Shown here piece by piece: positions 6,801 through 58,631 of a DNA stretch of 64,000 nt. Positions within the stretch are counted from its first letter, which is position 1. Each line of letters begins with the position of its first letter. The position numbers and the translations under genes were made by a program. Source of the stretch: Candidatus Ozemibacter sibiricus (lineage in GTDB: Bacteria > Muiribacteriota > Ozemobacteria > Ozemobacterales > Ozemobacteraceae); the NCBI GenBank assembly GCA_003327425.1, contig QOQW01000006.1, forward strand, positions 62,001-126,000, in the 5' to 3' direction. The notes below the pieces were generated by a model. That model searched no databases, was not told the DNA's origin, and saw only the letters and a program-made list of their open reading frames with translations.

Positions 6801-9211
6801 ACGAGGGCGTCGGCATCCCGCTGGAAGCGGTCGATCCAGGTGGTTTGCGTCCAGGCGGCTTCGGAAGCCAGGCCGGCCTGGGCCATCTCGCCAAGCAGGT
6901 CGGCCAGCTCGGCTGACCCTGATCCCGGGGCCAGGCCGGCCAGCAAGGCCGCCGCCCGCTGCCGGAGGGCGTCCTGGCGCTGTCGCTGGGCAGCCTCTTT
7001 CTGCAGATCGGCTCGATAGGCCAGCAGGGTGAGAGCCGCCGACGCATTGGCCGGGTCGATGCGAACGGCCTCTTCGAACAGCAGCAGGGCCTGGGTGGCC
7101 TGGCCGGCTTCCCGGGCGCGCGTGGCCCGGCGCTCGAATTCGGCGCTGATGACCGGCCGGAAGGCCTGGGCGAGGGGCCCGCCGCGGGTGGCCTGTTCGA
7201 GACTGAACAGGTGGCGGGCCGCCGTTTCGAAGTCGTTGAGGGCGATGGCGCGCCGAATTTCGGCTTCTAGCGCGGGGACGGTCAAGGCGACGGCATCGGC
7301 GGGCCGCGGCAGGGGGGGCGGCGGGCTGGCCGGGCGCAGATATACCCAGGCGCCCACGCCGAGCCCGAGGGCGCCGACCAGGGCGAGGCCGATCAGCCAG
7401 GAGCGGGAGGCGGGCCGGTCGTCGAGCAGGGTGCGCAAAGGCGCGGTGCGTCGGCTTTTGGCGATCTTGCGCGGGCCGGCTTCCTCCCCCGCGGCAGCGG
7501 CCGGATGCGACAACTGGAATTCCTCGAGGGCGGCGATCAGCTCTTCCGGGGTCGGTCGCGCCTCGGGGTTCTTGTCGAGCATGCGGCGGACGAGCGGGAG
7601 CAAAGGGGCGATGACCGGATCGGGAATCAGGACCTGGGCCGGCAGGGTGGCCTCGATGTGCTTGGCGGCGACCGCCACGGCGGCGTTGGCCCCGGGTTCG
7701 GCCTGGAAGGGGGGCTGGCCGAACAGCAGTTCCCAGAAGATGACCCCCATCGAGTAGATGTCGGATTTCCCGGTCAGGGCCTTGTCGCCGAGGCATTGCT
7801 CGGGCGACATGTATTCGGGCGTGCCCAGCGTGAAGCCGGTTCTGGTCGTGCTGACCGACGAGCGGGCGATGCCGAAGTCGAGGATCTTCAGCAGGCCGTC
7901 GCGGGTGATGTAGAGGTTGGCGGGCTTGAGATCGCGATGGATGATGCCACGGGCGTGGCAGGCCGCGATGCCTTCGGCCAGCTGCAGCATCAGCGGCACG
8001 GTGTTGAGCGGGGCCTTCAGAAGGCTGGGCTTGAGCGTGGCCAGCGTGACCCCGTCGACGTATTCCATGACCAGGAAGGGGCGGCCGGTGGTCTTCTCGA
8101 TCGAGGAGGCGTAGATGCCGACGACATTGGGATGGCCGACCGTGGCGAGCAGCTGCCCCTCGCGGATGAACCGCTCGACGAGGCCGGGATCGCGGCAGGC
8201 TTCTTCATTGAGCACCTTGATGGCGACCGTCCGATTGAGGGCGCGATCGCGCACCTTGAACGCGCGGCCCATGCCGCCTTCGCCGAGCAGGGATTCGATC
8301 TCGTAGATCTCATTGACCACCCCGCCGATCTGGAACGGGTCACGGCCCGTCGCTCCCGTGCGGCCGCCGGTCTCGAGGAGACGCACTTCCGTCTTCAACT
8401 GCTCGATGATGGTCGGCAGATCGGGACGGTCTTCAGGCTTCTTGGCCAGCATGCGCCCGAGCAGATCGCGGAGATGGGCGCCGACGGGGTTGGCGTCGAG
8501 CTTGTCGAGGGGCGGCGGATCGTTGAGGTGCATCAGGGCGATGGCCAGGGCTGGATCGGCGGCACCCGAGCCGACGTCGAAGGGCAGCGAGCCGGTCAGG
8601 AATTCCCAGAGCATGATGCCGATCGAGTAGATGTCGGCCTTCGGGGTGATCTCGCCTTTGCCCAGGCATTGTTCGGGCGACATGTAATGCGGCGTGCCGA
8701 TCGCGATGCCGGTGCGGGTCTGCTTCTGGGCGGCCTTGGCGATGCCGAAGTCGACGATGCGGATCTTCCCCTCGCGGTTGACCAGGACGTTGCCGGGCTT
8801 GATGTCGCGATGGATGATGCCCTTCTGGTGGCAGGCGTGGATGCCTTCGCACAGATCGATGAAATGCCGCAGGAGGGTGATGGGATCGCGTTGGTAGTCC
8901 TCGCGGCGTTTGTCGATGCTGACGCCGTCGAAATACTCCATGACCAGGAAGGTGGCGTTCAGCTCGAGGTCGGTGTCGGAGGCGTAGACGGTGACGACGG
9001 CGGGATGATCGATGGTGGCGAGGATCCGGCCTTCGTTCAGGAAGCGCTGGGCGAGTTCCTGATTCTGGGAGACGTCTTCCAGCAGGAACTTGATGGCGAC
9101 TTCCCGGCCCAGGTTCTGGTCGAGAGCGCGGAAAACCATGCCCATGCCTCCGGCGCCGAGCTGGGCAAGGATCTTGTAGTGCCTTCCGACGATTTGTCCG
9201 ACTTTGATCAT
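3839..9211 (-). CDS. tandem Ser/Thr kinase receptor with C-terminal beta-helix domain
   Basis: A 1790-residue transmembrane kinase. Two complete Hanks-type kinase domains lie in series (about residues 12-275 and 305-570). Each has a Gly-rich loop (GAGGMGMVF; GEGGMGRAF), a VAIK lysine, an HRD loop (IIHRDIKPGN; IIHRDLKPAN), DFG and a GTPxYMSPEQ activation segment, so both look catalytically intact. One membrane helix follows (about 602-624), then some 840 residues of Ala/Arg-rich helical sequence, a Pro-rich linker (about 1470-1500) and a right-handed beta-helix (about 1500-1790) with repeated xGNTIxx turns. The kinase half is expected in the cytoplasm and the beta-helix outside it, as a sensor or polysaccharide-binding part. 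A paralogue lies at 42600-46712. The gene is divergent from the AsmA/TamB-like gene. Confidence 0.93.
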   Translation of the reverse strand: MIKVGQIVGRHYKILAQLGAGGMGMVFRALDQNLGREVAIKFLLEDVSQNQELAQRFLNEGRILATIDHPAVVTVYASDTDLELNATFLVMEYFDGVSIDKRREDYQRDPITLLRHFIDLCEGIHACHQKGIIHRDIKPGNVLVNREGKIRIVDFGIAKAAQKQTRTGIAIGTPHYMSPEQCLGKGEITPKADIYSIGIMLWEFLTGSLPFDVGSGAADPALAIALMHLNDPPPLDKLDANPVGAHLRDLLGRMLAKKPEDRPDLPTIIEQLKTEVRLLETGGRTGATGRDPFQIGGVVNEIYEIESLLGEGGMGRAFKVRDRALNRTVAIKVLNEEACRDPGLVERFIREGQLLATVGHPNVVGIYASSIEKTTGRPFLVMEYVDGVTLATLKPSLLKAPLNTVPLMLQLAEGIAACHARGIIHRDLKPANLYITRDGLLKILDFGIARSSVSTTRTGFTLGTPEYMSPEQCLGDKALTGKSDIYSMGVIFWELLFGQPPFQAEPGANAAVAVAAKHIEATLPAQVLIPDPVIAPLLPLVRRMLDKNPEARPTPEELIAALEEFQLSHPAAAAGEEAGPRKIAKSRRTAPLRTLLDDRPASRSWLIGLALVGALGLGVGAWVYLRPASPPPPLPRPADAVALTVPALEAEIRRAIALNDFETAARHLFSLEQATRGGPLAQAFRPVISAEFERRATRAREAGQATQALLLFEEAVRIDPANASAALTLLAYRADLQKEAAQRQRQDALRQRAAALLAGLAPGSGSAELADLLGEMAQAGLASEAAWTQTTWIDRFQRDADALVQTDPERALAFYRDLRTHFPTTPGLDDRIRQAEATRARLASDAAAAAQQAAQQAAQAAALRTLLEEAERVAAALTPATDPRPVLALADRLTAAGQAERAAALRTRLVDLWLTEADRLAPADASGALALLERGLAALPGEPRLLERQAAIQEAARRAAAEAALASAAAALDLALTRFTIATDPTDVLAACARLATLGDRTRADAGRQRVADLFWEEIDRQAAASPAAALALARRAAAAFPDQTRFTAREQTLAEAIAQARAAAEREALLRQLRERIAQARAAWAPTHSPEAELADLRRLETEFALPEEAAAGRRDLAERYRTAARQVANDPAKALQILKVGQPAALDPAAWQAEITALETALASAAAQAQVAEAVNKKRVQGLAWAADPLAKKAAGLPALLADLDKAGATEAAGEIRAGAAAALRSRAAAARTTDDFDPLLAVANRLFPADDPFLAELREGMEQLKTRQASERVNRIRTALEKYAPGSPAKGLTGLFKELDSLGQAAVAQELADALRHRLTAAARAALARDPAEAETIVREALLFPPLAHDPGLQALAQEARTAAQQASERRRADLEAKVTQTLEAPDFPTKVETVAGLLKGLEQLPGGAEPARAGRRRAADRCLEAAQAAVSAKDLATARRLGDQARAFVPDHPGLAALAKALTDAARPPEPPVTPPIQPPDRPPTPPEPPVQPPGSPLEIVVAPGRSPSLADAVAQAQPGTTIKLQPGTHQGGLVIDKAITVVGDGDRGQIILQSADRPVLTLAGKALVSNLTIAYKGTSQTDAVKITGGSPTLKNCLVTSTAAAAAPDWSACVGIYGGNPVVQGNTLSGSRGMGLLVRGGKPLIQGNTMEGAAIYGVWFSDGAGGTLSGNTITRSGKSGIGIKNRAAPIIKGNTIRDNAENGVFVYADGAGTIQQNTITGNGWHGVQVDMGGKADRIEGNTISGNQKHGIHVQGNASQARVGANTLSGNKGQPERSDNGGRIDRL

Positions 9212-9225
9212 GCGCGGCGGGATTG

Positions 9226-9254
9226 ACTTTACGCTACAGGCCTCTGGCCGTCAA
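9226..9254 (-). promoter_or_regulatory. promoter of the tandem-kinase beta-helix gene
   Basis: On the minus strand TTGACG (9254-9249), a 17-bp spacer and TAAAGT (9231-9226) precede the ATG at 9211. The predicted start leaves an untranslated leader of only about 8 bases. The same arrangement is found before the second tandem-kinase gene. Confidence 0.65.
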
Positions 9255-9317
9255 GATTCACGCCAAAGTGAGCCCGCAGACCAGAAACAGTTGGCTGGGG
9301 AGAGCGGAGGGTATACA

Positions 9318-12300
9318 ATGCGGGAAATGGCAAACGAGGATCCGCGACAAACCCTTGATACCCTGGCGGCCGAGCTGGCGCGCCGTCAGGCGGCGCATTC
9401 CACCGGGGCCGGGCGTCGGCGTTGGCGTCGGCGGCTGGTGCGGGGCCTGGTGGGGCTGGTGGCGCTGGTGCTGCTGGTCCTGGCCGGCATTTTCATCGTC
9501 AATTTCCTGCGCCTCAACAGCAATCTCATCGAAGGTCACATCAAAGGCGTGGTCCTGCCGGCCATCACTCGCGGGGTCTTTCCGCTCGAGGTGGGTCGCA
9601 CGTCTGGCGACCTGTTGCACGGCATCGAACTCGAATACCTGCAGGTGCGCAACCCGGCGTTTCCGACGGGCGGCGTGCTGGCCGCCATCCCACGCATCTC
9701 CCTGAAATACTCCCTGTGGGATGTGTTCTTCGGCGACCTCGTGCTCGAGAAAGTGATCGTTCACAACCCGGTCATCACGTTGTCGCGCGCGGCCGACGGA
9801 CGGGCGATCTGGGACTTCCCGACCGCCTGCTGGATAGGCGATCTGACGGCTGTCGCATCCGGAACGGGTTTGCCGGCGAGCGGGGCCCCAGGAACGGCTG
9901 GGACCTGGACCACGGAGGCGGGGGCGCCAGGCGGAGCCGAGACGGGGCAGAGCCGGTTCGCCCTGGCGCGGGCGCAGGCGATCGCCGATCGGTTCCTGTC
10001 CCATGTCGAGATCAGGAATCTCAGCGTGATGATCCCGCGGCCGCGCGCTCTGCTGGCCGACCAGACGCTGGCCCGGCTGCTGCGCCTGTCGACGGGCAAC
10101 TTCTACCGCACCGGGGTCGATCTGCTGGTGCGGAAATTCCCTGAGCGCGATTTCACGACCCACCTGCTCAAACTCACGCTGCCAGACGACCCCGCTTTCC
10201 TCACCTTCCAGGTCACCCGGCTCCGGACGACGGGCGATCTCACGCTATCGGCCCAGGTGCTCGGCCAGAACCTGGAGGTCGCGGTGCAGAACCTCGGAGA
10301 GCCCGGGCGCCGCATCATCGTCTACGATGGTCGCGACAAGGAACGTTTGAACCTGCGGTGGATCCTGGGGCGGCCGGGCAAGCCCTGGCCCGAGCGTATC
10401 ACCGGCCTGACCGGAGTGTTGCGGCTCGCCGCGCTGGCTCCGCTCGAAGCCTGGCTGCCCGAAGGTTGCCGGCTGGCGGGCCGGGTGGAGGTCGCGCTGG
10501 CGGCTTCAGAGAGCGTCCCCTTGCGCGAGACGGTCGTCCACTGCCAGGCGACGGGGTTGCGGGCCGAGCTGCCCGGGTTGCCGCCGCTCGAGCAGCTCGA
10601 TCTGCGGCTGTCGGCCCGAGGCGGCATCGCCAGCATCGAACAGGCCGTCTTCACCGTGGCCGGGATTCCCTCGAGCCATACCGGCACCCTCGACCTGCGC
10701 GATCCCGAGGCCATCACCGGCGAGTTCGCCTCCGAGCTGGCCGGCGATCCGCTGCACCTGCGGACCGGCTGGCGGAAGCAGGGGCCCGGCCGCGCCCGCC
10801 TGACGCTGGTGGCGGGCCGACCGGGCGGCGAGCTGTCGCTCGAGGCCGAGCGCCAGGAGGCGCCCGGGCGGGTCGACTACCGCGATCTCGCCATCCGCCT
10901 CGAGCTCGAAGCCAAGCGGTCGCTCTACGAACTCGTGCCGGTGCGCCTGCTGCCAGACGACCTGCGGGCGCGGTTCGCCGCCTTTTTCGACAAAGTGACG
11001 ATCCTGGGGCCATTGCGGGCCGAGGCGGCGCTGCCCTCGCCGGTCGATTGGCCGCAGGGCATGGCCGAACTTCTGCTCGACGGGGCCCGGTTGCAGAACC
11101 GAGCGCAGCCGGCGCTGGGGGTCGACCTCGGCGGCCGCCTGCGGTTGCGGGCCGGCCGTCTCGATCTGCTCGACACCACCGCCACCCTGGCCGGACTGCG
11201 CGCCCTGGCCAGCGGATCGCTCGCCTTCGCCTCGGACAGCCGGCAGGTGGAACGCTACGATCTGGCTGTCCGTGGCGCCTTGCTCGCCAGCCGCGCGCTC
11301 ACCCTGACCGGCGCTCAGGTGGCCGATTCGTGCGGCCTGGCCAGTCCGCCGTTCGCGACTCTCGAACTCGAGGGCGGCACCTTCCTCGAAGCCGCCCTGC
11401 AGCGGCCCGGCCCGCCGCCCACCGCGCGCCTGTCCTTCGATCGGCTGCGGCTGCGCACCGGCCACGGCAAGCCCTGGCTGATCGATACCTTGCAAGCCGA
11501 GGTCCGGGCCGACGAGGCTCCGATCTTGACGGCCAGCGCACCCTGGCAGCCGCGCCTCGTCGAGGCCACTGCCGCGCTGCGCTTGTTTGGCGTCGACCTG
11601 GCGGTGGCCGCCACCGCCGATCTGGCCTCTCGCACCTTCGGCCAGTTCCGCCTCGAGGGGAAGGGCACCGACCTGCAGACGGTGCTGGCGGGGGTATCCG
11701 AGATTCCAGCCGTCGGGGCCGCCCTCAAGAAGTGGGGGCTGTCGGCGGGCGGCGCCTTCACGGTCCGCCTGGCCGGAGCCGGCCCCTTCGCCCGCCCCGC
11801 CGTGGCTGGCGGACTCGACGTGCCGCGCCTGACCCTCAAAGCCCGCGAGGCCAGCGCCGACCTGCCGTTCGTCGCCTCCTTCTCGTCGCCGGCGGAAGGT
11901 CGCTACCAGGGCCAGGTGCGAACGCGGCAGGCCGGGCTCATCGTGCGCGGCGTGGCCTTTCCGCTGGCCGCCGCTCAGGCCAGCCTCACCTACGACCGTT
12001 CCCAAGGGGGGCCGCAGCAGGTCATCGGCCTCGACGCCCAGGTGCAGAGCTTCGGCGCCACCGTCGCCGTGCGCGGGGAATATCTGCCCCACCGCGGTCA
12101 GATCAAGCAGGCCGTCGGGCGATTGTCCAGCCCGCGCATCGAGGAGCTGGCCCGCGAGATCGCCCGCATCGGCCGGTTCAACCTCCCCTTCACGCTGGTC
12201 GGGAAAGCGGCCGGTGAATGGAAGGCGGCCGGGCCGGTGACCGATCCCCAGGGCGAGGGGTTCCTCGAGGTCGACAGCCTGGGTCTGACCTTCCCGCTGC

Positions 12301-13892
12301 GGCAGCGCGGCAACCAGACGATCGCCCTCCAGATCGAGGATCTGGCCGGCCGACTCGAGCTGAGCTACGGGGGCCAGGCCGGCGATGCCGCGGTGGCCCT
12401 GAAAGGGGCTCGCGGGAAGGTGCTGGGCGCCGATCTCGTCCTCGAGGGGGCGGGCCGCCTGCGCCGGCAGGGCGAAGGCCGGGTGCCGGAATTCGACCGG
12501 CTGGTGGCCAGCTTCACCAATCTGGCCGCCGACCGGGTGTTCGCCCTGTTGAAGGCCGGGTTCTTCCCCGCCGAGACGGTGGCCCTCATTCCCGAGATGG
12601 CCGGCACTCTGCACGGCAGCCTGGTGGTCGGCGGGGCCCGCAACCGGTTCTCCGCCGAAGGCGAGGCCCGTCTCGAGAATGGCCGGTTGGCCCATCGCCT
12701 GCTGCTGGCCCCGCTCGAGGGCATGAACGGCCGGTTCCTGTTCTCGCGCAAGGCCGAGCGACCCTGGCCGGTCGTCGAGATCCGCGATTTCACCGCTTCC
12801 TTCGGCCGGACCCGGTTCGGCATTCCCTTCGGGCGGTTCACCGACCCGCAGGGAGCGGGCGGGCTCGACCTCGAAGGGCGCCTCGAACGGGCCTTCCCCG
12901 CTGATATCCTGAAGCTGCTGTCGGGCTGGAATCTGCCGACGGTGTCGTTTCCCAAGGAAGGCGCGCTGTCGGGGCGGGTGAAGGTCGACGGCACCCTGGC
13001 CCGGCCCCGCCTCGATCTCGACCTGCGCACCGAGGCGATGCTCGTCGATTACCGCACCGACCAGCAGAGCTACCTGGTGCCGCTGGGCAGCAGCGCGGCT
13101 GCTCTCTCCTTCGACCTGGGCACCGGCGAAGCCCGGCTCGCCTCGGCCTCGCTCGGGCTGCTGCTCGGGTGCATCGAGATCGGGAAGGGGTGGGCGATCT
13201 TCAACAAGGGGCGTCCGCAGCGGTTCGAGCTGGCCGGCCGCCTGCGGGGGATCGACCTCGGGGCCCTGCAGGCCGGCGGCGAGGCGGCCGTCCGCGGGCG
13301 CCTCGAGGGGACCTTCCAAGCCGAGCAGACGGCGACGGGCAGCCGGGAAGCCCTCTTCCAGCTCGTGTTCCATGACCTCGTGGTGCCGAACATTCCCGTC
13401 GATCCCGAAGCGATGAACAAGATCGGTCTGGAGTTCCTCGAGTCGCCCGAATTCCGAGAGGGGCGGCTGAACCTCTACCTGTCGAGCGACGAAGAGGCCG
13501 GCCAGGCCGGGCGGGTGCGCGTCGCCGACGGCCTGTTCGCCGGGCCCGACATGCGCCTGGAGATCGGCAACAGCGCCTTCGACCCGCTCAACCTGCAGCT
13601 CGATGCCAAGATCTTCTTCAACCCGCAACCGTTGCGCCGGACGAAGCTGGGCCGCCGGCTGGGCAGTCTGACCAAGCATCTGCAGGACAGCAAGACCGGC
13701 CTCCCCTACGTCGACCTCACGGTCAGCGGCCGCTGGGACAACCCCGCCCTGCTCGGCCGCACCATCGCGCGCCGGGCCGAGAGCCGGGGCAAGCGCAACT
13801 TCATCAAGAGCATCTTCGGCGGCCGCCGCACTCACAAAGCCAGCGTCGAAGAGCTGATGGAGTGGTTCCCCGGCTGGAAGCCTGGGGAATGA
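9318..13892 (+). CDS. AsmA/TamB-like envelope protein
   Basis: A 1524-residue protein with one N-terminal membrane helix (about residues 32-52, after a cluster of arginines) and an otherwise extracytoplasmic, beta-rich body. Short phrases such as GxLxLxxxxG and a closing region reading DLTVSGRWDNPALL are typical of the AsmA/TamB/YhdP superfamily, whose long hydrophobic grooves are now thought to carry phospholipids between inner and outer membranes. This fits a two-membrane cell. ATG at 9318 is chosen because GGAGGG lies 6 bases before it; longer upstream reading frame has no ribosome binding site. No BamA/TamA-type partner is adjacent. Exact subfamily (TamB or YhdP-like) cannot be fixed by eye. 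Confidence 0.75.
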   Translation: MREMANEDPRQTLDTLAAELARRQAAHSTGAGRRRWRRRLVRGLVGLVALVLLVLAGIFIVNFLRLNSNLIEGHIKGVVLPAITRGVFPLEVGRTSGDLLHGIELEYLQVRNPAFPTGGVLAAIPRISLKYSLWDVFFGDLVLEKVIVHNPVITLSRAADGRAIWDFPTACWIGDLTAVASGTGLPASGAPGTAGTWTTEAGAPGGAETGQSRFALARAQAIADRFLSHVEIRNLSVMIPRPRALLADQTLARLLRLSTGNFYRTGVDLLVRKFPERDFTTHLLKLTLPDDPAFLTFQVTRLRTTGDLTLSAQVLGQNLEVAVQNLGEPGRRIIVYDGRDKERLNLRWILGRPGKPWPERITGLTGVLRLAALAPLEAWLPEGCRLAGRVEVALAASESVPLRETVVHCQATGLRAELPGLPPLEQLDLRLSARGGIASIEQAVFTVAGIPSSHTGTLDLRDPEAITGEFASELAGDPLHLRTGWRKQGPGRARLTLVAGRPGGELSLEAERQEAPGRVDYRDLAIRLELEAKRSLYELVPVRLLPDDLRARFAAFFDKVTILGPLRAEAALPSPVDWPQGMAELLLDGARLQNRAQPALGVDLGGRLRLRAGRLDLLDTTATLAGLRALASGSLAFASDSRQVERYDLAVRGALLASRALTLTGAQVADSCGLASPPFATLELEGGTFLEAALQRPGPPPTARLSFDRLRLRTGHGKPWLIDTLQAEVRADEAPILTASAPWQPRLVEATAALRLFGVDLAVAATADLASRTFGQFRLEGKGTDLQTVLAGVSEIPAVGAALKKWGLSAGGAFTVRLAGAGPFARPAVAGGLDVPRLTLKAREASADLPFVASFSSPAEGRYQGQVRTRQAGLIVRGVAFPLAAAQASLTYDRSQGGPQQVIGLDAQVQSFGATVAVRGEYLPHRGQIKQAVGRLSSPRIEELAREIARIGRFNLPFTLVGKAAGEWKAAGPVTDPQGEGFLEVDSLGLTFPLRQRGNQTIALQIEDLAGRLELSYGGQAGDAAVALKGARGKVLGADLVLEGAGRLRRQGEGRVPEFDRLVASFTNLAADRVFALLKAGFFPAETVALIPEMAGTLHGSLVVGGARNRFSAEGEARLENGRLAHRLLLAPLEGMNGRFLFSRKAERPWPVVEIRDFTASFGRTRFGIPFGRFTDPQGAGGLDLEGRLERAFPADILKLLSGWNLPTVSFPKEGALSGRVKVDGTLARPRLDLDLRTEAMLVDYRTDQQSYLVPLGSSAAALSFDLGTGEARLASASLGLLLGCIEIGKGWAIFNKGRPQRFELAGRLRGIDLGALQAGGEAAVRGRLEGTFQAEQTATGSREALFQLVFHDLVVPNIPVDPEAMNKIGLEFLESPEFREGRLNLYLSSDEEAGQAGRVRVADGLFAGPDMRLEIGNSAFDPLNLQLDAKIFFNPQPLRRTKLGRRLGSLTKHLQDSKTGLPYVDLTVSGRWDNPALLGRTIARRAESRGKRNFIKSIFGGRRTHKASVEELMEWFPGWKPGE

Positions 13893-15817: not shown

Positions 15818-15852
15818 GGGGCATGTCATTATCGATGTTGAGAGGTCGAGGG

Positions 15853-17526
15853 ATGCCCCTGGTGTGCATGAATGAATGGGCCGGGCGGTGGGCCCGGTGG
15901 CTGAGCCTGGTCGGTGCCTTGTGGCTGACGGGAGGAAGCCTGGCGTGGGCCGCCGGCTTGACCGTGCCCCCGACTTCGGAACCCGAAGCCCTGCTGGTGG
16001 TCGAGGTGACGTTGCCGCCGTCCATGGCAGGGGCGGCCCGGCTCACTTTTCCCCCCAAAGCGGTGCAATTCGTCGGCCCCGTGGTCTCGACGCCGGAAGT
16101 GCAGTTCGTGCCCGACGAGATGGTCGAGATTCATCCTGAGGGGGGCCGACCAGGCACCTTCGGCCTGAAATTCCTGGCTTTGCCTGGCGCCACCGCCGCG
16201 ACCTTCACGTTGACCATCGGAACCGAGCAGCAGGAAGGTGGAGTGACGTTCGTGGTCCGGCAGGGTCAGGGCGGGTATTCTCTGATCTTCCTGGGCGTGG
16301 GGCTCGTCTTCCTGGTACTTGGGTGGAAAATGTGGCAGGTGCAGAAGAAGCATCCGGCCCTGATGTCGACCCGCTCTCTGTTCATGAACTACGAAGCCCT
16401 CGAGAAGATGCGCCAGGAATTCTTTCCAGGCTCTCAACCCGAACCGCCGGTGAGCGCTGGAAAAGAGAGCGCCCCGGCGGCCGGATCAGGGATGCCATCG
16501 CCGACGGATCGCCCCTCGGCCAGCGGGAGCCATCCTTCGGTCCCTGGTTCGGTTGCGGTTCCCCCGCCAGCTTCGAGTGACCAACCCGCCCTCCAGCCAC
16601 CGGCCACCCTGGTCGATCAGCCCGCTCCGGCGGCCCTGGCCACCCTGGTCGATCAACCAGCGCTCCAGTCGTCGCCAGACCTTGTCGCGCCAGATGCCAA
16701 CAAGGCCAGACCGACCCTGGTCGATCGACCCTCGCCCCAGCCCGCGCCGACCCTGATCGATCAACCGGCGCCTTCCCCTTCTTCGACCTTGATTGACCAG
16801 CCCGTCTCCGAAGTGATTCCGCCGATCGCTGATCAGCCAACGCCTGCCGCGGGGCCCACGACGGCAGCCCAGCCCGGCCCCGGCCCGATACCAACCCTGG
16901 TCGACCAGCCCGCTCTGAACTCCCCGCCCACGTTGGTCGATCGGCCAGGTGTCCAGCCGGTAGCGACGCTCGTCGATCAGCCGGCCGTCCAGCCCGCGCC
17001 GACCCAGGTCGACCAACCGGCGCCGGCCCATCCCCCTTCTGCGGTCGACCAGCCCGCCTCCCCGTCGCTGGCGCGGGCCACGGTGCAACGGCCTTCGGCT
17101 CGACAGCCTGCGGTGGGGGCCCCCGAACCCCCGCCTGTCGCCTCCGGCGGAAAAACGGTGGCCCGCCACACCCCTGTCACCCCGGCCGGCGGCACTATCG
17201 CCGGCCCGAAGTCGACCGCCGTCGCACCTGGAGCCATTGTCATCCGATTGCAGGATGACCGTGGCCGGGAATTCTCCGGCACCGCCCGGGAGATTACGAT
17301 CGGGCGCAAGAAAGATAACGTCATCTGCCTCAGCGCCGCCGAGGTCAGCCGATACCACGCTACGATCCGGGCCGATGGCGAGGGCTTCCTGCTGGTGCCC
17401 CTCTCGACCAGCAACCTCACCACCCTGAACGGGGAACGCATCACCAAGCCGGTTCCCATCAAGGCCGGCGACGAACTCGGCCTGGGAGGCACCCCATTCC
17501 GGGTGCTCGACCTCCGCCGCGGCTGA
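15853..17526 (+). CDS. membrane-anchored FHA-domain protein with TLVDQP repeats
   Basis: A 557-residue protein. A signal peptide (to about residue 33, AWAA) leads to a beta-rich extracytoplasmic domain (about 35-135) and one membrane helix (about 141-162). The long cytoplasmic part is Pro-rich (about 195-460) and contains nine T-x-[VI]-D motifs, mostly in the phrase TLVDQPA. The last 90 residues form an FHA domain, with GRKKDN, the SRYH motif and TLNGE, so the phosphothreonine pocket looks intact. FHA domains bind phosphothreonine; T-x-x-D is a known preferred site in some of them. Two membrane Ser/Thr kinases are encoded in the window. ATG at 15853 is chosen for its GAGG and because the predicted promoter overlaps the upstream alternative. 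Confidence 0.85.
   Translation: MPLVCMNEWAGRWARWLSLVGALWLTGGSLAWAAGLTVPPTSEPEALLVVEVTLPPSMAGAARLTFPPKAVQFVGPVVSTPEVQFVPDEMVEIHPEGGRPGTFGLKFLALPGATAATFTLTIGTEQQEGGVTFVVRQGQGGYSLIFLGVGLVFLVLGWKMWQVQKKHPALMSTRSLFMNYEALEKMRQEFFPGSQPEPPVSAGKESAPAAGSGMPSPTDRPSASGSHPSVPGSVAVPPPASSDQPALQPPATLVDQPAPAALATLVDQPALQSSPDLVAPDANKARPTLVDRPSPQPAPTLIDQPAPSPSSTLIDQPVSEVIPPIADQPTPAAGPTTAAQPGPGPIPTLVDQPALNSPPTLVDRPGVQPVATLVDQPAVQPAPTQVDQPAPAHPPSAVDQPASPSLARATVQRPSARQPAVGAPEPPPVASGGKTVARHTPVTPAGGTIAGPKSTAVAPGAIVIRLQDDRGREFSGTAREITIGRKKDNVICLSAAEVSRYHATIRADGEGFLLVPLSTSNLTTLNGERITKPVPIKAGDELGLGGTPFRVLDLRRG
16606..17020 (+). repeat. degenerate TLVDQPA-coding repeat
   Basis: About a dozen imperfect copies of a short unit coding for T-L-V-D-Q-P-A, spaced 12-30 codons apart, all inside the FHA gene. 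Third-base differences and changes to TLID, TLVDR and TQVD show that the units have diverged while T and D are mostly kept. Confidence 0.85.
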
Positions 17527-17660: not shown

Positions 17661-18842
17661 TCAGCGATTGCGCACCTCGAACTCGAGGGCGGCCGAAGCC
17701 ACGTTTCCGGCGAGGTCGGCCGCTTCGATCTCATAGCGATAGCGGCCATCCCGGAGGGCTCGGGTGGGAAGGGCGTAGCGGGCGGCGTAGCCGCGCTGGC
17801 GGTCGCCGTTGGTGAGGGTCAGCAGGAAGGAGCGTGGCCCCATTTCACCGTTCGAGGCGATCACTTGTTCCCCGGCCCGCACCCGTTCTTTGTAAATGAC
17901 GGTGGCGAGCTGCGTGCGGTCACCGATCACGGGCAGGCGGTCGAACCGCACCACCTCGAGCCAGGGCAGCAGTTCGCGCGGCTCGCTGGCGGGGGGGATG
18001 GCCAGCAGCCGGGTCCGCACGCGGAACGGCGAGTGCTGATACCGGCTGCCGGGCATCTCGTCGGTGATGGCCGCGACCAGATCGATGTCGCCGTCGACCA
18101 CCGGCCGACCCTCGGAGCCGGGCGGGAAGGCCCGCTCCTCCTCGTTGCGGACGAGCCATGCGCCATGCACCTGTGGCGGGAGGTTATCGAAAAGCGGGGC
18201 CAGGAACAGGGCCGGATTCAAGTAGGTGCCATCGGAGGCCACCACTTCCAGGTGGCAATGATGGTAGGTGGCTGGTTCGGGCAGGACGGGCTGATGCCAG
18301 GCGACGATGGTGCCGAGCGGAGTGCCGGTGGCCACTGCTTCGCCCGTTCGACTGCGGCGCAGCACCTCGCTGGGGATGGACGCGGCATCGAGGTGGCGGA
18401 ACATCCAGGTGTGGCCCCAGGCATCGGTCACGGCCACTTCGACGTAGCGGGTGTCGCTGCCCGATCGTGGGTCGAAGGGCCAGCGCCGATACTGGAAGCG
18501 CAGCGGCGACCGTCCGGCGTCGATCTGATACGACGACACGGTCACCGGGCCGGCGACCGGGGTGACAATGACCGTCCCCACGGGGGCGCGCAGGTCGATG
18601 CCGCCATGCAGGTACGGCACATTCGAGTAATTCTGGAAATCATGGAATTGAGCCCCGATCAGGAACGGCCCTCGCACCGGCCATTCCAGGCGCGGCGTGG
18701 GTAGGACGAAGGATTCTTCGGCGGTGGCGGCCCGGAGGTCGGGGTCCATCACCAGCGACAGGATCAGAAGGGCGAACAGGCAGAGCCCTGTCCAACGCCC
18801 ACGAGGTCTACAGAAGGGCCGAAACCACGGCAAGGAGGGCAT
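17661..18842 (-). CDS. M23-family (LytM-type) metallopeptidase, exported
   Basis: A 393-residue protein with a signal peptide or anchor (about residues 15-38). The peptidase region holds HGGIDLRAPVG (His and Asp ligands) and YHHCHLEVV (HxH ligands), the zinc-binding set of M23 endopeptidases, which usually cut peptidoglycan cross-bridges. The domain includes typical phrases such as GTPLGTIVAWH. The C-terminal 130 residues are beta-rich and end in YEIEAADLAGNVASA, an Ig-like or fibronectin-like tail found in surface enzymes. ATG at 18842 is preceded by AAAGGAAG. The gene follows a lipoprotein gene by 112 bases on the same strand; whether they are co-transcribed is unclear. Confidence 0.85.
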   Translation of the reverse strand: MPSLPWFRPFCRPRGRWTGLCLFALLILSLVMDPDLRAATAEESFVLPTPRLEWPVRGPFLIGAQFHDFQNYSNVPYLHGGIDLRAPVGTVIVTPVAGPVTVSSYQIDAGRSPLRFQYRRWPFDPRSGSDTRYVEVAVTDAWGHTWMFRHLDAASIPSEVLRRSRTGEAVATGTPLGTIVAWHQPVLPEPATYHHCHLEVVASDGTYLNPALFLAPLFDNLPPQVHGAWLVRNEEERAFPPGSEGRPVVDGDIDLVAAITDEMPGSRYQHSPFRVRTRLLAIPPASEPRELLPWLEVVRFDRLPVIGDRTQLATVIYKERVRAGEQVIASNGEMGPRSFLLTLTNGDRQRGYAARYALPTRALRDGRYRYEIEAADLAGNVASAALEFEVRNR

Positions 18843-18954
18843 CAGTCTAGGCTTCCTTTGGCGGGTATAGGCTGGGGAAGGCGGCGGGTGAGGGAAATTC
18901 ATCGCTGACCGTCTCGCCGCTGGCCCAGCACCGACGTTGCACCACACAGGGGGC

Positions 18955-20175
18955 TCATCGCAACCTGGGGTCGCCGGGCCGGCGATTGTACTTGTAGCGG
19001 AAGGTGATGCTGGTAGTCGGGGCGATCTGGGTGATCTGGAGGGCGCCGTAGGTGTCGCCGACATGGAAGGCGTAGACCTGGCCTTCGGCGAGAGCGGTGG
19101 GGAAGGGATAGCGGTCGAGGGCCTGGGGATAGAACGTCGCAGGGGCCGAGGCGACGTCGTCGAGGGACGTGGCCTCAGGCAGGTAGGCGATGACGGGGGT
19201 CTGGTCGGCGGTGGTTTGCGGTCGTGGGTGATAGCGGAACCAATTGCCGAGCGTCGGCAGGTTGTTGGGTGGCAGTTTGAAGAAGGTGATCCCCACGACG
19301 CTGCCCGGCACCGAAGGGACCGAATCGGGCGGGGAGGTGACCAGCCACTCCCGGTCATAGAACAGTTCAAGGGCCCCTTCGGCCAGATCGAGGACTCCGG
19401 TCTCGCCAGTGCCGGGCATCGGCGCCAGATCGGCGACCCGCGACGCTTCGCGGATGATCGCTTCCCCCCAGGTGAAATCGGCGCCCGGAATGATATTGGT
19501 CGTCATGCGCGTGTTGAGCCAGGCCTGCACCAGACCGCTGAGGGCCGATACATCGCCGGTGAACTGGCTGATGTTGCGCAGGGTCGGGCCCGGGCGCTGG
19601 CGCCAGGCTTCATAGGCCAGGGCTTTGGCGGTGGTGCCGGCATTGAGGGTGACAGTGGCGACGGTGATGCCGGCATCGTTGACGTTCACGCGATAGTATC
19701 CCTTGAGCAGAGGGCTGGTAGCGGCGGTATGGCTGGCCGGCAGGAGTTCGAGGGCGAACTCGGTCGGCCCGGGGATGAGGGGAACGGTGGCGCTGAAGGT
19801 CACGCGGTCCTGGAGGGCGCTGATGCCGAGGGTGGAAACCCGCGCCAGGACGGTGCCGTTGATGACCAGCCGCCCTTCGTAGCGCTGGGTGGTGGTGCCA
19901 TCGCTTCCTTCTCCTTCGGCGGCACGCAGAGCCAGGGCGAAGCCGGCGCCACCGCCGACCGGGCCGGCGACCGCCTCGGCGCTGATCGAGAGGGTGCCTT
20001 CACGGGAGGAGATGCCCGAACTCGAGCCGGCGCAGCCGACAAGCAGGAGGCAGCCCAGCAGAGCGATGGCGCTTCCCAGGCGAGGCGAAAGAAAGGGGAC
20101 GCCCCGATTGGCTGGGGGCCACCCATGGCGTCTCTCGGCGGGCGCGACCGGCGAGCGAGTCTGGGAAAACCGCAT
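18955..20175 (-). CDS. lipoprotein, paralogue of the next gene upstream
   Basis: A 406-residue predicted lipoprotein of unknown function. The lipobox is LLVGCAGSSS (about residues 35-45), after a basic N-terminus. Downstream it is beta-rich, with phrases such as YRVNVNDAG, ALAYEAW and a C-terminal GALQITQIAPTTSITFRYKYN. The neighbouring lipoprotein at 20452-21633 has the same phrases in the same order (ALAYEEW; GALQIHAVSAEMVTIRYKYN), so the two arose by tandem duplication followed by strong divergence. GGGAG precedes the ATG. No catalytic motif is seen; I do not assign a function. Confidence 0.75.
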   Translation of the reverse strand: MRFSQTRSPVAPAERRHGWPPANRGVPFLSPRLGSAIALLGCLLLVGCAGSSSGISSREGTLSISAEAVAGPVGGGAGFALALRAAEGEGSDGTTTQRYEGRLVINGTVLARVSTLGISALQDRVTFSATVPLIPGPTEFALELLPASHTAATSPLLKGYYRVNVNDAGITVATVTLNAGTTAKALAYEAWRQRPGPTLRNISQFTGDVSALSGLVQAWLNTRMTTNIIPGADFTWGEAIIREASRVADLAPMPGTGETGVLDLAEGALELFYDREWLVTSPPDSVPSVPGSVVGITFFKLPPNNLPTLGNWFRYHPRPQTTADQTPVIAYLPEATSLDDVASAPATFYPQALDRYPFPTALAEGQVYAFHVGDTYGALQITQIAPTTSITFRYKYNRRPGDPRLR

Positions 20176-20219
20176 GACGACACTCCCGAAGGTGGAATCG
20201 AAGGCACGGTGGTGGCGCG

Positions 20220-20249
20220 AGTATAGCATGTTCAAAGGATTTGTGCCAG
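20220..20249 (-). promoter_or_regulatory. probable promoter of the 18955-20175 lipoprotein gene
   Basis: Minus strand CTGGCA (20249-20244), 18-bp spacer, TATACT (20225-20220). The predicted start gives a leader of about 38 bases. Confidence 0.45.
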
Positions 20250-20391
20250 GGAGGTCGAAGCCGTCTTCAGCGGCTTCGACGAACCAATGGCTCCCCCTGG
20301 TCCGGCGAGCCCAGGGCGGCTGAGCCTTTCGGGCAGCGGCGGGCGAATCCGCAGTACATGGAAGGCAAACGCAAATCAAGTTCGCACACGA

Positions 20392-20428
20392 GAAAACCAC
20401 CCCCGACCTGGATGTGGTCGGGGGTGGT
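20392..20428 (-). terminator. rho-independent terminator of the 20452-21633 lipoprotein gene
   Basis: A perfect 13-bp stem (20396-20408 with 20416-20428) and a 7-base loop, followed on the minus strand by TTTT. It lies 23 bases after the stop codon of the lipoprotein gene. Confidence 0.85.
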
Positions 20429-20451: not shown

Positions 20452-21633
20452 TCAGTAGGCGATCTTCGCGGCAAACGCCTGAGGATTCAGATTCTTGTTG
20501 CCCTTGGTGGTGTTGTATTTGTAGCGGATGGTCACCATTTCAGCCGACACCGCATGAATCTGGAGGGCGCCGTAGTAGCCGTCAACCAAGAAGTCATACA
20601 CTTGATTTTCGGCCAATTGGGTCGCCTGGGAATCACCGCCGAAGGCGTGGTGGTTGTAGGTGTCACCGGCCTGTGTCACGGCATCGAGCGAGGTCACGTT
20701 GGGCAGGTAGCGGATCACCGTGGTTTGGTTGGCAAAAGGAGTGAACGGGCCGAAGAAATTCCCGAGGGTTAAACGATTGTCGGGGGCCGGGAGGGGGAAG
20801 AAGGCGATTCCGATCTTCTCGGGAACGGTCTGCATCTGGCTGACCTGCTGCGGTTCGGTCTGGCCAGGCAGCCACTGGAACCCAGGCTGAATGTAGGCCT
20901 CCCCGGTGGCGATGTTGCCGGTAGTGGTAGGAGTGGGCGCTGGAGTGTCGGAAGCGACTTTCTTGGCGTCGTCCGTGACGGTAGCTGGCCACTTGAAAGT
21001 GGCATCAGGGAGGACCGTAGCGGTCATGTTGGTGTCGAGATGATTCTGGATCTTCAGGGCCAGAGCGTCGATATCGGCCTGATTGGGGCTGAAATCATTG
21101 ATGGTGGCATTCGCCGTTTGCGTTGGATATTTTTTCTTCCACTCTTCATAGGCCAACGCCCGAGCGGTGGCGGTGGCATTGAGTTGCGGGTTGTCGGTGG
21201 TGCGCCCGCCATTGTCCACCGTGGCGACCCGGTAGGTTTTGAACAAGGGGTCCGTGGTGGTATTGGCCGTGGCCGGATACAATTCGATGGAATATTCGTT
21301 TGTCCCTGGGTTCACCGAGATCTCAGCGTTGATGTACAATTCCTTGTTGTCATCTTTTTTGGTGAGATCGGTGGTTTCGGTGGCGGTCACCCCATTGACT
21401 TTGATCACCGCTTTGTACCCGGTGGTGGCGACCACAGCCGCACGTGGCGAATGCCGAACGGAAGCGGCGAACGCGGCAGCGCCAGCGCCTCCTGACGAAG
21501 CGATGGCCGCGATGGCGATGATTCCCAGCGCCGCACCCAGGATGCCGCCACCATCTCCGCCGCACCCAGTGGACATGATGGCCAGGCCGCCTACGACGGC
21601 GAGAATCAAGACCAGGCTGATGGTTTTATACAT
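20452..21633 (-). CDS. lipoprotein, paralogue of the 18955-20175 product
   Basis: A 393-residue predicted lipoprotein. The signal peptide ends in MSTGCGGDGGG, giving a lipobox cysteine at about residue 24, and is followed by a Gly/Ala-rich hydrophobic stretch (about 29-58) that could insert in a membrane. The rest is beta-rich and shares several blocks with the downstream lipoprotein: an NPGTNEYSIELYPA-like block, ALAYEEW, PNVTSLDAV and the closing GALQI...TIRYKYN. A strong ribosome binding site (GGGGAGG) precedes the ATG and a strong terminator follows, which suggests substantial expression as its own unit. Function unknown. Confidence 0.8.
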   Translation of the reverse strand: MYKTISLVLILAVVGGLAIMSTGCGGDGGGILGAALGIIAIAAIASSGGAGAAAFAASVRHSPRAAVVATTGYKAVIKVNGVTATETTDLTKKDDNKELYINAEISVNPGTNEYSIELYPATANTTTDPLFKTYRVATVDNGGRTTDNPQLNATATARALAYEEWKKKYPTQTANATINDFSPNQADIDALALKIQNHLDTNMTATVLPDATFKWPATVTDDAKKVASDTPAPTPTTTGNIATGEAYIQPGFQWLPGQTEPQQVSQMQTVPEKIGIAFFPLPAPDNRLTLGNFFGPFTPFANQTTVIRYLPNVTSLDAVTQAGDTYNHHAFGGDSQATQLAENQVYDFLVDGYYGALQIHAVSAEMVTIRYKYNTTKGNKNLNPQAFAAKIAY

Positions 21634-28898: not shown

Positions 28899-29390
28899 TC
28901 AGCTGCCGAGCGTGTGCAGGGCTTCTTCGGCCTGGTGGGCGATGGCGGGCTCGGGACGCAGCTTCAGGCACTTCTCGAACGCGGCGCGGGCGCCCTTCAG
29001 GTCGTTGGTCTTGGCCAGGCAGAAGCCGTAGTAGTAATGGGCCTCGGCGTTGCTGGGCGAGGCCTTGACCGCCCGCGTGGCGAACTGCAGCGCTTCGGTG
29101 AATTTGCGTTTGGCGATCATCTCCTTGGCTTTGTCGAGGGCGATGGCTTCATCGTCTTCGAGCACCAGCTCGATGAACTTCCGGTTGATCGACAGGAACC
29201 CCACTTCCGAGGTCGACTGGTCGCGCAGGTCGGTCACGCTGACATTGGTCACGGGCAGGAAATCCTTCGTCGCGGTGTCGGCGTTCAGGATGTCGGTCAG
29301 TCGACTGTTCTCATAGAGATGCACTTCGCCTTTGATGCGGTGATGGGGGGTGTAGATGATGACCCGAAGCTTTTCCTTGTGCGCTTTCAT
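28899..29390 (-). CDS. TPR protein with an N-terminal small beta domain
   Basis: A 163-residue cytoplasmic protein. The first 75 residues look beta-rich (RVIIYTPHHRIKGEVHLYEN) and resemble small DUF6812-like domains; the remaining 85 form two TPR repeats (ALQFATRAVKASPSNAEAHY and following). ATG at 29390 is preceded by GGAGG at an ideal distance. It lies 28 bases after the stop of the radical-SAM/thioesterase gene on the same strand and is likely co-transcribed. It could be an adapter for a partner; function unknown. Confidence 0.8.
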   Translation of the reverse strand: MKAHKEKLRVIIYTPHHRIKGEVHLYENSRLTDILNADTATKDFLPVTNVSVTDLRDQSTSEVGFLSINRKFIELVLEDDEAIALDKAKEMIAKRKFTEALQFATRAVKASPSNAEAHYYYGFCLAKTNDLKGARAAFEKCLKLRPEPAIAHQAEEALHTLGS

Positions 29391-29418
29391 CGTGTCCTCC
29401 AGAGGGGTGGTTGGTCGT

Positions 29419-30801
29419 TCAGCATTCGGCGAACCGTCCTTCGGCCTCGGCCAGCAGGGTGCCATCGGGGCCGGTGACGGTGCCGCGCGCGAAATGGATC
29501 CGTTGGCGGTGGCCGGTGCGGGTGCCGGTCACGGTGAGGGGAAGCCCGACCGGAACCGGGCGCAGGAAGCGGACTCGCAGGTCGGCGGTGACGACTTGCC
29601 GGCCGGCTCCGTTCAAGCAATGAGCCATGGCTTCGTCGAGCAGGGTCGAGAGCAGCCCGCCGTGCACGATTCCGGCATAGCCCTGGAAGGCGGCCCCGGG
29701 GACCCAGGTGGCGGTGCAGGTATCGGCATCGTGCCGACGGAAGGCGATCTGCAGGCCATCGGGATTATGGTCGCCACAGACGAAGCATTTGCGGTTGTCG
29801 AGCAGGGCGAGCCCGCTGCCGGCCCGGGCTTGCAGACGATCGCGGGCTCGGCTCAAGGCTTCCGCCAGCCCGGGGCGGTTCACGGCGACGGGGGTGGTCA
29901 GAGGCAGACGTTCGTACAGCGCGCCGGCGGCTTCTACCAGCCGGCTCTTCACCAGCTCGAGCCCAGGCACCGGGAAGGTGGGCATGATCGGATCGCCAGT
30001 GACGATCGGCGTCGATCCCAGATCGTTGAGACCCGCGCCGATCAGTTCGGGGTAGCGGGCGAACAGATGGATGGGCACCGACAGGGCATGCACGGGAAAA
30101 GCCCGCGCCAGCTCGATGATCATCGCCCGGACCTCGTCGAAGGGCAGGGGCGGGCGGGCGCGGAATGGCGTGCCGGGCACCGGCTGGAAAGGGACCGCTC
30201 GCACGTCCTGCAGCCAGGGGTCGGCGGCGCAGAACGCCCCGATCTCCTGCACGGTTCGCCGACGTTCTTCCGCGCTCTCCCCGAGGCCGATCAGGAAATC
30301 GAGGTGGTAGGGCAGGCCGGCCTGATGGGCTTTCTCGATCGCTTCGCGGGCGGTGGCGGGGCGGCGGCCCCGCGCGGCCGCGTGGGCCTGGCCCTCGCCA
30401 TCGAGCGGCGCGGCGAGGACCGGGATGCGCACCGAGGCCGCCACGGGCGCCAGGGTCTTCAACTCGAGCGGGGTCAGCCAGCCGACCTGGAGCACGGGCA
30501 GCAGACCGTGCTCGAGCGCCATGCGGCAGGCCTGATGCAGGTATTCCCCGAAGGACGTGCATTTGTCGCGGGCCAGGGCCATCAGCACGTGCGGCCGTTC
30601 GGCCGGCGACTGCCCGGCGGCCAGCACCACTTCGGTCGCCCGCCCTTTCGCCAGAGGAGCGAACTGGTCGCCCAGGCGACTGAGCGGCACCAGGGGATCA
30701 TCATCTCGACGGAATCCGCAATAGGCACAGGCTTCGCGGCAGGAACGGGTCAGCACCACGGTTCCGCTGACCACCACCGAAACCGATCGGGTCGTCTGCA
30801 T
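29419..30801 (-). CDS. fusion of a CofG-like radical SAM domain and a PaaI-like hotdog thioesterase
   Basis: A single unbroken 460-residue protein. The N-terminal 310 residues form a radical SAM barrel with the cluster motif CREACAYCGF (C-x3-C-x2-C) and a stretch TEVVLAAGQSPAERPHVL that recalls CofG, the deazaflavin (F420/F0) synthase subunit, and biotin-synthase-like enzymes. The C-terminal 140 residues are a hotdog thioesterase, opening with KCFVCGDHNPDGL and containing GIVHGGLLSTLLDEAM, the PaaI-type active-site helix. Such a combination is not one I recognise. No CofH partner is adjacent. There is no ribosome binding site before the ATG; TACACT 7 bases upstream suggests a leaderless message. 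The reaction is unknown. Confidence 0.82.
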   Translation of the reverse strand: MQTTRSVSVVVSGTVVLTRSCREACAYCGFRRDDDPLVPLSRLGDQFAPLAKGRATEVVLAAGQSPAERPHVLMALARDKCTSFGEYLHQACRMALEHGLLPVLQVGWLTPLELKTLAPVAASVRIPVLAAPLDGEGQAHAAARGRRPATAREAIEKAHQAGLPYHLDFLIGLGESAEERRRTVQEIGAFCAADPWLQDVRAVPFQPVPGTPFRARPPLPFDEVRAMIIELARAFPVHALSVPIHLFARYPELIGAGLNDLGSTPIVTGDPIMPTFPVPGLELVKSRLVEAAGALYERLPLTTPVAVNRPGLAEALSRARDRLQARAGSGLALLDNRKCFVCGDHNPDGLQIAFRRHDADTCTATWVPGAAFQGYAGIVHGGLLSTLLDEAMAHCLNGAGRQVVTADLRVRFLRPVPVGLPLTVTGTRTGHRQRIHFARGTVTGPDGTLLAEAEGRFAEC

Positions 30802-30918
30802 GGTGGAAAGTGTACCACAAAATCGGCGGGGCGACACCTCGCAGAATTTGGGAACCTTTTCGCCGATCCGTGGTCAATGCATGCAAATCCTGGGGAAAAT
30901 GTGAGGAGCAAGCGTCTC

Positions 30919-32160
30919 ATGATCGTCCCTTCCTCTGGAAGGCTCCGGTCCCTCCTGGCGGTCCTGATCCTGTTGGTGCTGGGGCTGGCCGCTGGCCAGC
31001 CGGGAGCGGCCCAGTCGGCGGGCTTCTCGATCGACGCCACGGTCGATCGCACCAAGGTCAGGTTCGGCGAATCCTTTCAATTGCTGATCACGGTCACGCA
31101 GCGCCTTTCCGGCGGAGGCACCGAACGGATCGGGGCCCCGCAGGTCAGTCAGATTCCCGGCTTCGACATCGTCGGCCAGCGCACCTCCCACAACACGATG
31201 ATCATCAACGGCATCGGGCAGATCCAGTTGCAGACGGCCGTCGAGCTGGTTCCTCAGAAGGCCGGCGAGTTCACCATTCCCGCGTTGAGCATGCAAGGCC
31301 CTGACGGGAAGATCTACTCGACCCGACCGATCCCGATCACCGTCCTGCCGCCGGCCCCCGATGATGAAGCCCCCGGGCTTGGCGAGGCAGAACCGGCGGC
31401 CGGCCCCGGCGATCAGGGCGAAGAGAGTCGGTCGGGCTCGCGCCTGGCCAATATTCTGGTCGTCGCTCTGGTCATTCTCGGGTCGGTGATCGGTGCCCCC
31501 ATTCTGCTGACCTGGCTCCTCAACCGGAACGTCAAGCCGTCCACCCGCTGGCAGGACGAAGAGCCGGCCACCATCACCGCCACCACCACCGGCGGGCCGC
31601 GGCGCGGGGCTGCCGAGACGAGAGCCGCTCGCCCTGTCCCGCCCATCGAAGACGCCCAGATCACCCGGCGCGAATCGCCCCCCGCGGCCCCCGCGAGTGG
31701 GGCGGCGAGCGCTGGGTCTACCGGCGTCGCCGCCGCGGTCAGCGGGAGCACCCCTTCCAGGGCGACCGGCGGCGGGCCCCGTCCGTCCACGCCCGCTCCC
31801 CAGGCCGGGCCTCGCGTCGCCGCGCCGCCGCCCCTGCGCGATCAGGTCGATTTCGAGCGCGAGGTCACGGCATTGCAGCGCCTCCATCCCGAGGCCGATC
31901 TCGAATTCTACCGCTCGTTCTTCGATCTGTTCCGCCGGGCCGCTCTCGGGCGGTCGGCCCGACTCGACCCGCACATGACCCCCGATGAGATGGTCCAGAG
32001 CCTCCTGCGCACGCTTCCTGAGCCGGTCGGAGTCCGGTTGCGCCGGCTGGCCGACGATTGGGAAGGGGTCGCGTTCGCCCATTGCCGCCCCGCCCGTACC
32101 TGGTCCACCATCCTCGAGGACGCGCTCGCCGTCCTTGCCGCCATCCCATCCCAGGAGTGA
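30919..32160 (+). CDS. BatD-like membrane protein
   Basis: A 413-residue protein and first gene of the Bat/MoxR cluster. A signal peptide (about 8-33, ending AAQSAG) is followed by an Ig-like N-terminal region with the BatD phrase ATVDRTKVRFGESFQL and later QLQTAVELVPQKAGEFTIPALSM. One membrane helix lies at about 177-200. The remaining cytoplasmic half is Pro/Ala-rich and then helical, ending with a small domain (about 300-413). BatD proteins help the VWA proteins of the operon at the envelope. Only four bases separate its stop from the MoxR ATG. GAGGAG upstream of ATG 30919 supports the start; longer upstream frame is antisense. Confidence 0.82.
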   Translation: MIVPSSGRLRSLLAVLILLVLGLAAGQPGAAQSAGFSIDATVDRTKVRFGESFQLLITVTQRLSGGGTERIGAPQVSQIPGFDIVGQRTSHNTMIINGIGQIQLQTAVELVPQKAGEFTIPALSMQGPDGKIYSTRPIPITVLPPAPDDEAPGLGEAEPAAGPGDQGEESRSGSRLANILVVALVILGSVIGAPILLTWLLNRNVKPSTRWQDEEPATITATTTGGPRRGAAETRAARPVPPIEDAQITRRESPPAAPASGAASAGSTGVAAAVSGSTPSRATGGGPRPSTPAPQAGPRVAAPPPLRDQVDFEREVTALQRLHPEADLEFYRSFFDLFRRAALGRSARLDPHMTPDEMVQSLLRTLPEPVGVRLRRLADDWEGVAFAHCRPARTWSTILEDALAVLAAIPSQE

Positions 32161-58529: not shown

Positions 58530-58571
58530 GGCTTAAAGGTTCCTTCGCTCCCGCCGATGAGCAAAAGTGGG

Positions 58572-58597
58572 AATTTTCTCATTTCCCTGGTATACTC
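58572..58597 (+). promoter_or_regulatory. extended -10 promoter of the HEAT/PilT gene
   Basis: TGGTATACT (extended -10, TATACT at 58592-58597) with a weak TGGGAA at -35. It lies inside the upstream extension of the reading frame, so translation must begin at 58632 or later. Confidence 0.45.
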
Positions 58598-58631
58598 AGG
58601 GAACCTGATCCGGGAGGGGCGCCCCCGTCAC

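Follow-up and report, generated by a model that had tools for sequence, protein, structure and literature searches.

Does the threonine-rich linker of an FHA-domain membrane protein of Candidatus Ozemibacter sibiricus serve as a kinase substrate, and, if so, which FHA domain reads the phosphorylated sites? The question is raised by a gene within the analysed window (a stretch of 64,000 nucleotides of contig QOQW01000006.1), the product of which carries repeated T-x-[VI]-D motifs between its transmembrane helix and its FHA domain. The features of the locus are collected in Table 1.

Table 1. Features of the FHA protein gene and of the associated kinase and TamB-like genes (positions are those of the window).
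Feature	Position	Strand	Basis and remarks
kin1, tandem Hanks-type kinase with membrane helix and C-terminal beta-helix	3839–9211	-	Divergent neighbour of the TamB-like gene
kin1 juxtamembrane RRTAPLRTLLDDRP, T-L-x-D core shared with the array	7412–7453	-	Sequence
TamB-like gene, conserved partner lying upstream of the FHA gene	9204–13892	+	Synteny; true start probably at about 9318
FHA membrane protein gene	15853–17526	+	557 aa from ATG 15853; open reading frame confirmed
N-terminal hydrophobic helix, probable signal sequence	15871–15951	+	Sequence; helix 7–33 predicted by AlphaFold
Extracytoplasmic small beta domain, about residues 34–140	15952–16272	+	AlphaFold
Transmembrane helix, residues 144–166, KK at end (positive inside)	16282–16350	+	AlphaFold; sequence
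Conserved juxtamembrane motif MST[RK]SL(F/Y)MNYEELEK	16363–16407	+	Alignment of 16 orthologues
Repeat array, 13 in-register units of 12 residues, consensus TLVDQPA-x4-P	16606–17073	+	Reading in register
Linker piece ATVQRPSAR	17077–17103	+	Present in all three genus members
FHA domain	17293–17487	+	Pfam PF00498, residues 481–545, E 2.6e-15
Glu497, position of Rad53 Arg83 (+3 selectivity)	17341–17343	+	Alignment; invariant, 16/16
kin2, second tandem kinase	42600–46712	-	Juxtamembrane SLFD, without TLxD

Architecture of the FHA protein and its repeat array

AlphaFold models, obtained for three sequences of the genus, suggest a single-pass membrane protein comprising a signal sequence, a beta domain, a membrane helix, a disordered linker and a C-terminal FHA domain. 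An alternative in-frame ATG at 15823 would lengthen the protein by 10 residues. The beta domain (modelled on residues 31–136) contains nine predicted strands with pLDDT 82 and pTM 0.76; though this model is confident, no PDB match was found for the domain at E<=0.001. A juxtamembrane helix is predicted at residues 173–190, and the juxtamembrane residues M171, S172, T173, S175 and L176 are invariant across the 16 orthologues. The Pro-rich linker that follows (residues ~197–456) is structureless and of low confidence, due to which the mean pLDDT of the whole protein is only 51.

The original prediction counted nine T-x-[VI]-D motifs in this linker. All of them are present (TLVD six times, TLID twice and TQVD once), and they lie within a strict 13-unit repeat. 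The first position of the unit is occupied by Thr in 10 of the 13 units and by Ser in one, Asp is found in 11, and Gln in 10, with Arg in two more. Proline at +5, which the original prediction did not include, occurs in 12 units, its conservation thus matching that of T and D. In 1000 shuffles of the linker, the expected number of motifs was 0.12 for T-x-[VI]-D and 0.99 for T-x-x-D, versus nine observed in each case, with p about 0.001 being the floor of that number of shuffles. No T-x-x-D was found in the Pro/Ala-rich linkers of two other FHA proteins of the same genome and of one in a genus mate. A scan of six-frame ORFs amounting to 198,000 aa found no second comparable TxxD cluster, and a genome-wide DNA pattern scan returned the array and background only. 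The array DNA is not flagged by TRF, which fits the diverged synonymous sites and spacers.

Between units, pN/pS, calculated as raw proportions from few short units, was 0.38 for the six residues of the core (bootstrap interval 0.20–0.55) and 0.82 for the spacers (0.69–0.96), the two intervals having no overlap. For the ten units starting with T, it was 0.06 at T and D alone and 0.00 at proline +5, but since these are raw proportions and restricting the set to units with T favours the value at that position, they show the direction and not the exact strength. This direction indicates purifying selection on the TLVDQP core and much less of it on the spacers.

Distribution of the array and organization of the locus

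Orthologues of the FHA protein are encoded by 16 of the 24 genomes of the family. The array is present in all three genomes of one genus and in that genus only; the family relatives have the FHA protein with other linkers, which in other genera are as short as about 70 residues. The two genus mates have arrays that differ from that of the window in length and period: seven TLADRP copies and TxxDQP variants in G001, and eight copies of T[LGAE][VI]DQ in G002. Across the genus arrays T, D and Pro are constant and positions +1 and +2 variable, but the unit lists of G001 and G002 were chosen by a T-requiring pattern, so the only unbiased counts are those of the window. Outside the genus no TxxD array was found, all 13 other linkers together containing 8 T-x-x-D versus 7.7 expected. 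The expectation that T and D would be the best kept positions in homologues is borne out within the genus, by three members and with Pro +5 kept equally. The array appears to be a genus-level add-on to the FHA protein. Different short threonine repeats occur elsewhere in the family: T-x-[ED]-M-P is found four times in the linker of L056 from a sister genus (G004; g3), and STLP/STVP three times in the linkers of L065, L057 and L062 (g4). In the g4 linkers the number of T-[VIL]-P motifs is well above expectation (14 versus 1.5).

The free variation of linker length and sequence across the family would be consistent with a Pro-rich spacer that is not phosphorylated and has spread through turnover of the repeats, T and D serving only solubility or extension. 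Repeats expand readily in such genes, and the G001 array holds near-identical TLADRPAVTP copies. Such a spacer is, however, an unlikely explanation of the core codons, on which purifying selection acts much more strongly than on the spacers of the same units. The lack of the motif in the other Pro/Ala linkers of the window genome, and the retention of T, D and P in three genus members despite differing period and middle residues, argue against it as well.

The gene of the FHA protein is part of a conserved locus that also encodes kin1, a tandem Ser/Thr kinase, and a TamB-like envelope protein. Comparison of the window proteins with the contigs of relatives by tblastn revealed that kin1 is divergent to the TamB-like gene in 11 of the 12 genomes with sufficiently long contigs, across five genera (g1, g4, g5, g6 and g8), and that 14 of 15 genomes have the FHA gene after the TamB-like gene; the exceptions are G003 and G008, respectively. 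In the array-bearing genus an HD-domain gene is located between the TamB-like and FHA genes, and in the window an NYN gene is found there too. The designation TamB-like derives from Pfam TamB (PF04357), which matched the C-termini of two of ten orthologues, weakly (best E 3.9e-4), and did not match the window copy; PDB sequence and profile searches with the TamB-like gene gave nothing. No literature was found on FHA and TamB together, or on Riflebacteria kinases.

Several other genes of the window may be mentioned. Downstream of the FHA gene, an ORF at 17661–18850 (-), present in genus mates, is LytM/M23-like by eye and has no Pfam match. The adjacent related genes at 18955–20400 (-) and 20452–21633 (-) have overlapping matches in relatives and no Pfam match, the product of the latter having a lipoprotein-like N-terminus. 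A large protein with a BatD domain is encoded at 29356–32160 (+), and a type II/IV secretion ATPase (T2SSE) domain fused to HEAT repeats at 58557–61448 (+).

Both tandem kinases that the original prediction placed in the window exist, and the nearer one, kin1, is the conserved neighbour. Its juxtamembrane region contains RTL[LF]D within the array-bearing genus, T-L-[LF]-D being present in all three members (RRTAPLRTLFDERP in G002 and RRTAPLRTLFDDE in G001). The corresponding region of a g2 kinase reads AQTLFDT; T-L-[LF]-D was not found in the kinase juxtamembrane regions of the other genera read, which carry SGLV or unrelated sequence. The array would thus seem to repeat the core of a juxtamembrane site on its likely kinase, kin1, although this match, being short and spotted after the fact, is suggestive only. 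The genome also encodes three PP2C-type phosphatases.

The combination of a selected threonine repeat and a conserved locus with a tandem kinase indicates that the array is probably a multi-site target of kin1. In the preferred reading, to which a probability of about 0.5 may be given, the FHA protein is a membrane adaptor whose array is a multi-site kinase substrate and pThr docking platform. Kin1 (or a relative) would autophosphorylate its own juxtamembrane threonine and, in the array-bearing genus, would also phosphorylate the motif copies in the FHA linker. The phosphorylated array could then form a graded, multivalent docking platform beside the membrane for an FHA reader, and the main ligand of the protein's own FHA domain would be a different pThr, such as one on kin1. 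The core job in the family would be the coupling of kinase signalling to a TamB-like envelope function.

FHA specificity and the candidate reader

The hallmarks of an FHA domain (GR, SxxH and N) are present in the protein, the pThr-pocket residues R485, S499, H502 and N521 are invariant in 16 family members, and Foldseek matches include EmbR, GarA and FhaA. The preference of Rad53 FHA1 for Asp at +3 is conferred by Arg83 (PMC4037201, PMC5041073), located two residues before the pocket Ser85. The FHA protein has Glu497 two residues before S499, whether or not the genome carries the array, and hence lacks the basic residue of FHA1-like pTxxD selectivity. Accordingly, pTxxD is a poorer predicted ligand here than for other FHA domains; the +3 rule is not absolute (PMC4037201), so binding of the array by the protein's own FHA domain is made less likely rather than impossible.

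Since Glu497 would suit a basic residue at +3, an ancient T-[VIL]-x-[RK] linker motif was considered as the true ligand and rejected: it occurs 4 times outside the genus versus 2.8 expected in shuffles, and a Gibbs search of 11 linkers gave 119.0 (shuffled mean 113.0, maximum 118.8) and an incoherent motif. Co-evolution of the FHA domain and the array was likewise rejected, as the alignment, examined by eye, reveals no genus-specific change in the specificity loops that tracks the array.

These observations bear on the proposal, made in the original prediction, that the phosphorylated threonines are bound in trans by the protein's own FHA domain to give a self-crosslinked cluster. The FHA domains of GarA and OdhI bind their own phosphopeptides. 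Such a domain is also known from DgcB (entry 6hc1), found among the Foldseek matches, and in the present protein the array shares one chain with an FHA domain having an intact pThr pocket. Many weak sites could work jointly, the AKAR reporter pairs a TLVD substrate motif with FHA1, and G002 has almost no further FHA proteins. Self-crosslinking is nevertheless disfavoured, and its probability appears low: Glu replaces the Asp(+3)-selecting Arg invariantly, the specificity loops show no visible change with the linker, and the FHA domain persists in other genera, where the array is absent and linkers can be short.

Arg at the +3-selectivity position is found in other FHA proteins of the genus (L001, L073 and L099); C55 and L001 represent the Arg type in the window genome, and L073 in G001. 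A C55-type FHA protein is a candidate, possible pTxxD reader. The C55-type proteins L001 and L073, with Arg at the +3 position, also have a long Pro/Ala linker and a domain with the motif WWQISPHTG, and L002 carries a similar motif domain. In the G002 genome (91% complete, fragmented) the array FHA protein and a single further FHA protein were detected, and the Arg type was not seen.

Overall, the adaptor reading is favoured by the kin1/TamB-like/FHA synteny, the conserved FHA pThr residues, the selection on the array, the preference for Thr over Ser, T-L-[LF]-D in kin1, the Arg-type FHA proteins and the PP2C-type phosphatases. Against it stand the limitation of the array to one genus, the conservation of Pro +5, a residue not required of a plain pTxxD ligand, the array-bearing G002 with no Arg-type FHA seen in its fragmented genome, and the departures from synteny in G003 (kin1 not adjacent) and G008 (FHA gene not beside TamB). 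A bolder version of this reading, in which the adaptor copied the kin1 juxtamembrane T-L-x-D site into the 13-unit array and, once phosphorylated, clusters kinase, adaptor and TamB-like machine as a switchable hub, is quite doubtful. Least probable is that T-x-x-D-[QR]-P is a non-phospho short linear motif docking a kinase or another partner and concentrating it at the membrane, as might be thought from the conservation, beyond pTxxD needs, of Gln/Arg +4 and Pro +5 with T and D, but the preference for Thr over Ser hints, weakly, at phospho-reading.

Known systems and significance

Human TIFA is an FHA protein that self-assembles through phosphothreonine; unlike the FHA protein described here, it is eukaryotic, with one pThr near the N terminus and no membrane helix. 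In the engineered AKAR/SPARK reporters, comprising Rad53 FHA1 and LRRATLVD, the TLVD threonine was designed as an FHA1 ligand once phosphorylated, and SPARK versions form clusters; FHA1 has Arg83, whereas the present protein has Glu at that position. Mycobacterium tuberculosis Rv1747 forms phosphorylation-enhanced condensates via its FHA domains and disordered linker (PMC9312465). Like Rv1747, with its kinase PknF, the protein under study is a membrane protein in which FHA is combined with a disordered linker containing several candidate acceptor threonines (nine TxxD sites); the Rv1747 condensates are promoted by Hanks kinase phosphorylation. Rv1747 differs in being an ABC transporter with two N-terminal FHA domains (FHA-linker-FHA), and the text of PMC9312465 consulted describes no TxxD repeat array for it. 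In type VI secretion systems condensates are formed by both Fha and the kinase PpkA, of which Fha is a substrate (PMC12607579): in Acidovorax citrulli and Agrobacterium the membrane kinase phosphorylates the FHA protein, FHA reads the pThr, and the condensates recruit clients. Fha is linked to T6SS genes, while the protein of the window sits with kinase and TamB-like genes. Its identification as T6SS TagH/Fha was rejected (32.2 bits versus a cut-off of 120.25, in the FHA region only).

In view of Rv1747, T6SS Fha/PpkA and AKAR, a pThr-driven FHA scaffold is not new in kind, and the description of the protein as a new kind of signalling hub has to be given up, phosphorylation-enhanced FHA assemblies having been published. 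If phosphorylated, the array would offer a naturally occurring platform of multiple, countable pThr sites from a lineage that has received little study (Ca. Ozemobacteraceae), built on a motif close to that used by engineers in kinase reporters. It would then allow testing how the number of repeats determines the strength of assembly through FHA domains. Separately, the kinase/TamB-like/FHA locus suggests that an envelope pathway is under the control of Ser/Thr phosphorylation in this family.
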